Below are positions 14,830 to 17,614 of a stretch of 64,000 nt of DNA, in pieces; position 1 is the first letter of the stretch; each line of letters begins with the position of its first letter. Where the stretch lies: positions 101,033-165,032 of the forward strand of contig CALRDN010000001.1 in assembly GCA_943354965.1 (NCBI GenBank). The letters run 5' to 3'. The translations under genes and the position numbers were made by a program. The stretch is from Candidatus Peribacteria bacterium (GTDB lineage Bacteria > Patescibacteriota > Gracilibacteria > UBA1369 > UBA12463). The notes beneath the pieces were generated by a model. It saw nothing but the letters and a program-made list of their open reading frames with translations, was not told the origin of the DNA and made no database searches.

Positions 14830-15900
14830 TCAATCTACTTTTTTCTTTTTTATCAATTCGTAAAATAAGTTTTTTCTGTTTTGGGCGAAGGGTAGAGGGG
14901 AATTAAAGGGGTGAATGCCCGAAGCCCAAAACTCCTTATATTGGAAAACGGCGAGTAATGATGGGTGTATAAGCCTTTTGTCCAGAAACATGTGGAAGCC
15001 ATTTGAGGTGATACCTGTTTTATTTTTTGATGGTTGTATAGGTTTTATTGCCTCTGGTGCATAAATCAAAATTGCCATATTTCTATCCTGAGTCATTTTT
15101 CTATCTTGCGCCCATCCGTCAAAATCAGACAAATAAGAAACTTGATCGACATCCCTTGTTGCGTCAAGTCCGTTTTCTTTCATTGCCAATTCTTCTCCAT
15201 CGTCTCCATCATGATGAATGGTAGTAAGAGAAGTGTGGTCTCTGTCGGTACCAGTTGAAAAAGCATGTTGCACTCTCTCTCTGTTGATAACTCTGATTTT
15301 TAACCCTTTTCTATAAAGACCTGCTTGTTGTAGTGAGTCAACGATATGCTGCGTTAAAGATTCACCCTCTTTGGGTAGTGAAAAATTTCTTATTGGCTGT
15401 TCTTTGGGTCTTAACATCGAACTAACAGCATCTATCAATTTTTGATTTTTTATTTCATTTAACTTTTTTACTGCATACCACGGATCGCTAATACTTCTAA
15501 TTTCCGTACTTTGAGTTTCATCTAATAATCCAATAACTGTTAACTGACTAACAAGTTCTTCCCTTTGTTTCAAATATTTCAAATGGCGAAGACAATAGCT
15601 TGGGTCGCGTTGTCTTAAATCAAATAAAACCGCTTCGTCTAATCCGTATCGCGGATTTTCCGACATTTCTTTAATTTTATTTTCTCGTTCTCTGATTTGT
15701 TTTATATGTTCCACACCCCATTCTGGAAATCTGCCTTTAATTTCGTCGGCGTACTCACGGGAAACTAAACCTTCTGATACTGCGGTTTCAAGTTGGCTAT
15801 GATATTGTTCTGGCGTTGTACGCTGGTTTTGTGAACCTCTAGAAAAAGGATCATCACCGAACTCATTTAATCCTTTTCCAAATTGTAATTTATCTTTCAT
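14830..15900 (-). CDS. Hypothetical protein, 356 aa
   Basis: Long ORF with plausible composition; no recognised domain. Confidence 0.65.
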   Translation of the reverse strand: MKDKLQFGKGLNEFGDDPFSRGSQNQRTTPEQYHSQLETAVSEGLVSREYADEIKGRFPEWGVEHIKQIRERENKIKEMSENPRYGLDEAVLFDLRQRDPSYCLRHLKYLKQREELVSQLTVIGLLDETQSTEIRSISDPWYAVKKLNEIKNQKLIDAVSSMLRPKEQPIRNFSLPKEGESLTQHIVDSLQQAGLYRKGLKIRVINRERVQHAFSTGTDRDHTSLTTIHHDGDDGEELAMKENGLDATRDVDQVSYLSDFDGWAQDRKMTQDRNMAILIYAPEAIKPIQPSKNKTGITSNGFHMFLDKRLIHPSLLAVFQYKEFWASGIHPFNSPLPFAQNRKNLFYELIKKKKVD

Positions 15901-15932: not shown

Positions 15933-15960
15933 TTTAAGGTAAAATTCAATTCAATATTCT
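15933..15960 (+). promoter_or_regulatory. Weak promoter-like element for hairpin RNA 1
   Basis: TTTAAG-N16-TATTCT; -10 ends 8 nt before the hairpin. Confidence 0.35.
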
Positions 15961-15968
15961 GGCTTTAG

Positions 15969-16019
15969 AAAGGTCCTCGGCCAGTGGTTTATACACCACA
16001 CATTAGCGGAGGCCTTTTT
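15969..16019 (+). ncRNA. Candidate ~50-nt hairpin RNA, copy 1
   Basis: AAAGGTCCTCGGCCAGTGGTTTATACACCACACATTAGCGGAGGCCTTTTT: outer stem, inner GTGGT/ACCAC stem, terminal U-tract; paralogous to 16159-16207. Confidence 0.55.
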
Positions 16020-16121
16020 ATTTGTTTAAAAATAGTTCGCATAATAAGCAGATTCTTGTTGAATATGCGAAATTTGGCTGCATATACGCAATATATTACA
16101 CAGAATGTTAACTTTCTTGAG

Positions 16122-16150
16122 TTGACCGTGAGGGGCGATTTTGATATGAT
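16122..16150 (+). promoter_or_regulatory. Sigma70-like promoter for hairpin RNA 2
   Basis: TTGACC-N17-TATGAT; -10 ends 8 nt before the hairpin. Confidence 0.6.
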
Positions 16151-16158
16151 GTTTACGT

Positions 16159-16207
16159 AAAGATCTTCGGCCCGTGGTTTTCGTACCACACTTGCGGAGG
16201 ATCTTTT
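16159..16207 (+). ncRNA. Candidate ~49-nt hairpin RNA, copy 2
   Basis: AAAGATCTTCGGCCCGTGGTTTTCGTACCACACTTGCGGAGGATCTTTT: 10-bp outer stem, same inner stem, conserved CGGCC and GCGGAGG. Confidence 0.6.
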
Positions 16208-16210
16208 ATG

Positions 16211-16618
16211 TTATTCTGGAAAAAGGGAAATGAGGTATTTTTGGTTCGTTTTTGGGAGTTCCTTAATCTGCACTGTGAAGTAATAACCATCCTGCGTTCT
16301 TCCTCGAAATCGATGCAGAATTTCGCTTTTTTTGTTTGGATTTCTGCTAGATTCTGGTGGTTTTTTTGTCTTTTGAATGAGTTCAATTGCGGCACTAAAA
16401 TATTTCAATCTACGAAGCCTATCGCGTGGATTTTTGTTGTGCATATGCTCCCAGAAAAAATCAAGAAAAATCTTCTGCTTATTGAAATATACTGACCGAA
16501 TATGTGGTTTTCTCTTTGTTTTGTTTTTTAAAATTTTAAAGAAGCCATATGCCTTTGCGTAAATCTCTCTAAAATCCGTACCTGGCGTCCTCCCTGTTTT
16601 GGCTTGATAATACTGCAT
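16211..16618 (-). CDS. Small basic protein, possibly a PBECR/RelE-like nuclease
   Basis: 135 aa; C-terminus ILHRFRGRTQDGYYFTVQIKELPKTNQKYLISLFPE is reminiscent of phage-associated Barnase/EndoU/RelE-like nucleases. Recognised by pattern only. Confidence 0.4.
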   Translation of the reverse strand: MQYYQAKTGRTPGTDFREIYAKAYGFFKILKNKTKRKPHIRSVYFNKQKIFLDFFWEHMHNKNPRDRLRRLKYFSAAIELIQKTKKPPESSRNPNKKSEILHRFRGRTQDGYYFTVQIKELPKTNQKYLISLFPE

Positions 16619-16690
16619 TCTGGGAATGTATCATTCTTCGTAGGGAGTGTCAATCGTTTATGGCTTGTGCTAGCCATTTCCGTGTCATTA

Positions 16691-16731
16691 ATTTGTTATA
16701 AATTTGTTAAGAAAATGTCAGGGATTTGTTA
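16691..16731 (+). repeat. Three ATTTGTTA direct repeats upstream of the recombinase
   Basis: ATTTGTTA at 16691, 16702 and 16724, spacings 11 and 22 bp. Confidence 0.5.
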
Positions 16732-16783
16732 GATGGGCGTGGTAGTGTGGGGATTGGTTTTTTATTAATTATTTCTTGTTTGT

Positions 16784-17614
16784 ATGGATGAGCTGTTGAA
16801 AATGGCGGAGGAGGAGATGAAGTTAAGAAATTATAGTAGGCGGACGGTGAAGACGTATTTGGGATGCTTGAGGGGGTATTTTTTGTATTGTATGGGATTG
16901 CGTTTGGGGAAGGAGGCGTTGTCGGAGTGGAGTAGGGAGAGGGTTCGGGCGTTTTTGCTTTTGAAGATTGATGCGGGAAAGAGTTCGTCGACGGTGAATG
17001 TGTATTTGAATAGTATTTTGTTTTTGTATCGGGAGGTTTTGAAGGTGGCCGGAAAAGTGGATGTGAAGTTTGGGAAGCGCGAGCAGCGGTTGCCGGTGGT
17101 TTTGTCACATGGGGAGATTGTGAGAATGCTGGAGGGGACGGTGAATTTTAAGCATCGGGTGATGCTGGCGGTGGCGTACGGGGCGGGGTTGAGGGTGAGT
17201 GAGGTGGTGGGTTTGAGGGTGAGAGATTTGGACTTCGAGGGCGGTTTGATTACGGTGCGGCAGGGAAAAGGAAACAAAGATAGGGTGACGGTGTTGCCTT
17301 CGATGGTGGTTGGAGATGTGCGGAGGTTGATTGCGAGACGAGAGGCGGGGGATTTGGTGTTTGAGAGTAGTTGGGGCGGGAAGTTGAGTACCAGGAGCGC
17401 GCAGAAGGTTTTTGAGCAGGCTTTGGGGAGGGCGGGGATTCATGTGGTGGCGACGTTTCATTCGCTGAGGCATAGTTTTGCTACGCATTTGTTGGAGCAC
17501 GGAGTGGATGTGCGGTATGTGCAGGAGTTGCTGGGGCATAGCAATATTCGCACCACGCAGAGGTATACGCACGTGAGTAGGAAGGCGATCGGGGGAATTG
17601 AGAGTCCGTTGTAG
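16784..17614 (+). CDS. XerC/D-like tyrosine recombinase
   Basis: SAM-like N-terminus; GAGLRVSEVVGLRVRDLD, HSLRHSFATHLLEHGVDVRYVQELLGHSNIRTTQRYTHV supply the R-HxxR-H/Y residues. Lacks the extra IntI domain. Confidence 0.9.
   Translation: MDELLKMAEEEMKLRNYSRRTVKTYLGCLRGYFLYCMGLRLGKEALSEWSRERVRAFLLLKIDAGKSSSTVNVYLNSILFLYREVLKVAGKVDVKFGKREQRLPVVLSHGEIVRMLEGTVNFKHRVMLAVAYGAGLRVSEVVGLRVRDLDFEGGLITVRQGKGNKDRVTVLPSMVVGDVRRLIARREAGDLVFESSWGGKLSTRSAQKVFEQALGRAGIHVVATFHSLRHSFATHLLEHGVDVRYVQELLGHSNIRTTQRYTHVSRKAIGGIESPL

Follow-up and report, generated by a model that had tools for sequence, protein, structure and literature searches.

Two hairpin RNAs and a convergent protein gene

The window analysed here is a 64,000-nucleotide stretch of contig CALRDN010000001.1 from a Candidatus Peribacteria bacterium, and it contains two short plus-strand hairpins, each preceded by a promoter-like element (Table 1). 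A preliminary description, made from the sequence alone, had reported two hairpins with a common layout, and both their positions and the shared pattern were reproduced. The pattern TCGGCC-N-GTGGT-N6-ACCACAC-N-GCGGAGG has two matches in the window and none in 100 shuffles. A near-identical pattern is found solely at these two sites in the whole 1.16-Mb genome, and a covariance model adds two copies on other contigs. The folding energies are -20.1 kcal/mol for copy 1 and -21.8 kcal/mol for copy 2 (z of -3.9 and -4.9 relative to shuffles). Rfam covariance models gave nothing in the region at the gathering score, and nothing when relaxed to E<=5, in keeping with the earlier remark that no known family could be recognised.

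Table 1. Features of the locus (positions within the window)
Feature	Position	Strand	Basis
Promoter-like element of copy 1, weak (TTTAAG 15933-15938, N16, TATTCT 15955-15960)	15933..15960	+	Sequence
Hairpin RNA copy 1	15969..16019	+	Fold compared with shuffles; covariance model R1, 79.0 bits
Promoter of copy 2 (TTGACC 16122-16127, N17, TATGAT 16145-16150)	16122..16150	+	Family-wide promoter at the same position
Hairpin RNA copy 2	16159..16207	+	Fold, pattern count; covariance model R1, 74.7 bits
135-aa protein gene, convergent with copy 2	16211..16618	-	Homologues; hairpin linkage; AlphaFold model
Promoter-like element of the 135-aa gene (TTGACA-N17-TACATT, 6 nt before ATG)	16625..16653	-	Sequence; leaderless mRNA predicted
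Tyrosine recombinase with Phage_int_SAM_4	16784-17614	+	Profile match

Copy 2 has a 10-bp outer helix (AAAGATCTTC/GAGGATCTTT), GC/GC pairs, an asymmetric internal loop, a GTGGT/ACCAC inner helix and a 6-nt loop, with a U-tract at its 3' end. The outer helix of copy 1 has 9 bp and one bulged T. Beyond the outer helix, both copies have a G.G mismatch and two further pairs (GC/GC), followed by the internal loop. The outer stems pair as originally described, including the bulged T in copy 1, but the real helix is longer than the stem that was given. The -10 hexamers end 8 nt ahead of each hairpin, and the element of copy 1 is weak where that of copy 2 is good, both as first noted. Copy 1 is an additional, solo copy: no family gene lies directly 3' of it. 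It has a syntenic counterpart in a genome of the same genus (L008:2098-2154), in which the TATTCT -10 hexamer is retained.

The 135-aa gene had been overlooked; only 3 nt separate its stop codon from copy 2. A Shine-Dalgarno-like GGAGG in the hairpin, ahead of an ATG at 16208, was considered as a coding start and rejected, as it is not kept in copy 1; the plus-strand frame from that ATG is merely the antisense of the real 135-aa gene. Just beyond copy 1 lies a 356-aa ORF (14830-15900, minus strand), for which no homologue was found at the other loci of this type and no match at a meaningful score in Pfam, NCBIfam or PHROGs. TTTGTTA-like motifs are repeated at 16690-16735, in the interval separating the 135-aa gene from the recombinase, and similar TTTGTTA/TTTGTCA repeats lie upstream of the family gene at another locus (L006); these are possible regulator sites.

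Structure, strand and promoter of the RNA family

Searches of related genomes with covariance models, proposed as a check in the preliminary description, returned homologues: the RNA recurs in many Patescibacteria with compensatory base-pair changes. Pairing statistics were taken from 46 RNA copies (45 distinct). In this alignment 97.9% of cells are paired, falling to 47-59% when the 3' strand was slid as a control, and changes on both sides occur at 10 of 17 pairs, the inner helix included, compared with 5.1 in shuffles; fitting the alignment to the structure flatters these pairing and covariation counts. Most apical loops read UYAUAN, and the internal loop usually has C or CC on its 5' side. 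Mean identity between hairpins is 74%, equal to that of the second codon positions of the gene (0.74 each). Third codon positions reach only 40%, and the 45 nt upstream only 31%.

There are 78 G-U pairs and five A-C mismatches, and therefore the plus strand is the structured strand. This bias would suit both RNA and single-stranded DNA; it is the promoter that argues for RNA. TTGACA/TATAAT-like hexamers occur upstream of the RNA across the family, with a mean of 9.8 of 12 matches compared with 6.5 in shuffles, at a near-fixed distance from the hairpin, and the sequence in between is not conserved.

These data bear on the possibility that the hairpin is a shared bidirectional transcription terminator and nothing more, as its GC-rich stem, flanked by an A-tract on one side and a U-tract on the other and placed between convergent units, could suggest. 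We consider this extremely improbable. A promoter a few nucleotides upstream leaves nothing else to terminate, the apical and internal loops are conserved, the inner helix has compensatory changes, and solo copies exist. Comparison gives good support to the original proposal of tiny RNA genes with promoters of their own, belonging to no known family and not acting as simple terminators: there are homologues with compensatory changes, a strand-specific G-U bias, a promoter at near-constant distance, solo copies and no Rfam match. The word autonomous is only half correct, since the RNA makes up a two-gene locus together with the convergent 135-aa gene at 16211-16618.

It is also very unlikely that the hairpin acts as a folded single-stranded DNA site (attC- or REP-like) handled by the adjacent tyrosine recombinase. 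That enzyme adjoins the unit, is divergent from the 135-aa gene, and carries Phage_int_SAM_4 along with a below-threshold match to the TIGR02249 integron integrase (its best NCBIfam match, 210.6 bits against a cut-off of 265, in two split stretches). However, among the further units examined, recombinases of this type lie near only a few (L010, L090, L097 and L159), on varying sides, while the promoter is conserved and the partner protein is unlike any transposase. The recombinase is perhaps a housekeeping Xer. An integron attC/IntI arrangement, suggested by the layout, was likewise rejected, as the recombinase scores below the IntI cut-off and is near few other units. REP/RAYT systems resemble the present one in having small gene-linked hairpins as well as solo hairpins elsewhere in the genome. 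Here, in contrast, the partner does not match Y1 transposases, every hairpin has a promoter ahead of it, and the hairpins are few, whereas REP hairpins number in the hundreds.

The partner protein and its linkage to the RNA

The 135-aa protein is basic, and its AlphaFold2 model is confident (pLDDT 94.7), as is that of a divergent family member (pLDDT 92.6). The predicted fold is alpha/beta, a set of helices leading into four strands. All 42 of 42 sequences retain H58 (helix 53-60) and S/T131 (strand 126-134, the last one), and K49, W56 and R70 are likewise invariant. A common configuration of BECR RNases combines a His in the helix with a Ser/Thr in strand 4 (PMC5512222). The family has the BECR pattern of a helix and four to five strands with a helix His and a strand-4 Ser/Thr, judged by the order of elements only. 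Among the best matches of Foldseek searches against the PDB were RelE, RelE2, HigB and a CDI toxin (E >= 0.04, TM ~0.3), intermixed with unrelated folds such as PTP1B, and searches against BFVD returned phage polyvalent/MuF-C proteins (best E 6e-4). The likeness to BECR RNases (RelE/HigB toxins, PBECR/MuF-C) comprises a helix followed by four strands, an invariant helix His, a Ser/Thr in the last strand and weak Foldseek similarity; unlike them, the family has no detected sequence or profile similarity to the group, and its partner is an RNA rather than an antitoxin protein. No match was obtained when the family was compared with a Mu MuF-C alignment using hhalign. Searches of Pfam, NCBIfam, PHROGs, PADLOC and PDB sequences with 35 members gave no consistent family, no curated toxin family (Pfam, NCBIfam, PADLOC) matched the 135-aa protein at threshold, and the protein profile found no relative among IMG/VR viral contigs. 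From the predicted structure, it can fairly be inferred that the protein is RNase-like with a BECR-type fold.

The gene-side promoter is near chance across homologues (7.8 compared with 7.6), the start codon of many homologues lies 6-9 nt after a -10-like element, and a Shine-Dalgarno-like 4-mer is present in just 10% of them. Together, these features make weak, leaderless expression of the gene likely.

Of 89 genomes of the order, 23 carry gene homologues, with one to five copies each, as do 28 of 380 genomes sampled across the phylum. A GTDB survey yielded 79 loci with gene homologues from Peribacteria, Peregrinibacteria, Magasanikbacteria, Uhrbacteria, Moranbacteria, Doudnabacteria, Saccharibacteria and others, as well as one match labelled Nitrospirae, possibly through a binning error. 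The surveyed genomes are mostly MAGs, and the GTDB and order surveys have some species in common and are not independent. At the GTDB loci, a covariance model built on these hairpins places the RNA convergently, on the strand opposite the gene and shortly after its stop codon (mostly 0-20 nt), at 81 of 82 homologous frames, and the sole frame without it is a 56-aa N-terminal fragment. In the order, the RNA is present at all 36 full-length genes (35 and one degenerate copy). The RNA is usually a single hairpin, and a few loci have a second, separate copy.

The converse does not hold. The order has 64 RNAs, of which 35 lie by a full gene, seven by a fragment and 22 alone, and some solo RNAs (L082, L097 and L090) adjoin remnants of a deleted gene. 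Dissociation is thus one-way, with genes lacking the RNA rare to absent and RNAs lacking the gene common. This fits a protein that is harmful, or useless, in the absence of its own RNA. At two loci (L197 and L199), the family gene has an in-frame stop (TAG) and the hairpin RNA alongside is intact. An empty-site comparison of two genomes of the same genus showed differing flanks and no readable boundary.

Protein similarity and hairpin similarity are correlated (Mantel r 0.50, with none of 1000 permutations as high), a correlation to which shared descent contributes. More telling are L200, L201, L192 and the fragment L202, the homologues that diverge most. They have no clear covariance-model score and yet carry a promoter, a two-part hairpin and a U-tract at the same place with a different sequence; in L200, L201 and L202 the 3' side of the predicted internal loop is again the heavier one. 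The hairpin of L192 is extended to ~75 nt, with the promoter TTGACA-N18-TATACT.

Proposed working and comparison with known systems

We judge it somewhat probable that the locus works as a toxin-antitoxin-like module, with a short RNA that binds an RNase-like protein directly and thereby inhibits it. It would be a compact two-gene module, with the gene for a basic protein of ~135 aa and an opposite-strand hairpin RNA arranged tail-to-tail. The RNA of ~50 nt would be made from its own promoter and end in its own U-tract. Strongly promoted, it would bind the weakly promoted protein via the internal loop and the UYAUAN apical loop and hold it inactive; if the RNA supply were lost, the protein would be freed and would cleave cellular RNA. 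Computation shows the anatomy of the RNA gene, its conserved structure, its strand and promoter, the near-obligate linkage, the one-way dissociation and the co-divergence; we infer that the RNA is transcribed and binds the protein, and that the protein is a toxic RNase which the RNA inhibits. Direct neutralisation of the type III kind is favoured by the expected excess of RNA over a weakly made protein, by co-divergence and by one-way dissociation, and the multi-copy, patchy distribution, as in toxin-antitoxin modules, supports the toxin-antitoxin reading.

One-way dissociation would also be expected if the protein merely required the RNA to function. The RNA might serve a non-toxic RNA-binding protein as cofactor, guide, substrate or regulator, with the pair doing some other job; we regard this as rather unlikely. 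Near-obligate linkage and co-divergence would suit any protein-RNA pair, and the evidence for an RNase fold is weak. Promoter-bearing solo RNAs and broken genes beside intact RNAs are, however, easier to explain with a harmful protein, and the multi-copy, patchy spread and the His/Ser pattern suggest a toxin.

The proposed module resembles type III systems (ToxIN, CptIN, TenpIN and AbiQ) in the proposed direct neutralisation of an endoRNase by a small structured RNA, and in the proposed excess of RNA over protein. Type III systems are defined by an RNA and a toxin in one operon under one promoter, with the RNA upstream and a terminator between them (PMC8167048). Here, in contrast, the RNA is encoded opposite to the gene and downstream of it, and has a separate promoter; it is one hairpin rather than an antitoxin of tandem ~36-nt repeats, no pseudoknot was seen, and the 135-aa protein has no match to the ToxN, CptN or TenpN families. 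Differing in orientation, promoter layout, repeats and toxin family, the module is outside type III by the published definition.

The best-known architecture with this layout is the antisense arrangement of type I par (Fst/RNAII), which likewise has convergent genes and an intervening hairpin that could terminate both transcripts. By analogy, the convergent RNA could pair with the toxin mRNA at its 3' end, where overlap in cis is possible, and block its translation or stability. The convergent layout with a shared hairpin resembling a bidirectional terminator, as in par (PMC8167048), agrees with this, and the RNA could base-pair with any mRNA running through the hairpin. We nevertheless consider such a mechanism improbable. 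Pairing in cis needs no sequence conservation between loci, whereas here the RNA keeps both its structure and its loop sequence from locus to locus, and the hairpin is as conserved as second codon positions; par-type antisense leaves this conservation unexplained. G-U drift is confined to one strand, and cognate complementarity to the translation start was not found (p 0.17). The partner is moreover a basic, well-folded protein of 135 aa, predicted to be RNase-like, and not a small hydrophobic membrane peptide.

The open-licence papers searched contained nothing relevant on small RNAs or RNA antitoxins in Patescibacteria, nor did they describe a structured small RNA with a linked protein partner from the Candidate Phyla Radiation. 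There is a plausible case, falling a little short of even, that this is a new Patescibacteria-specific RNA-controlled toxin-antitoxin (or other protein-RNA) module, composed of new protein and RNA families in convergent orientation with separate promoters. As the RNA is compact and recurs across many lineages, and its protein partner has been identified, an RNA-protein toxin-antitoxin mechanism is directly testable. If true, it would add a convergent, single-hairpin design to RNA-antitoxin systems, and an unannotated protein family would gain a function.
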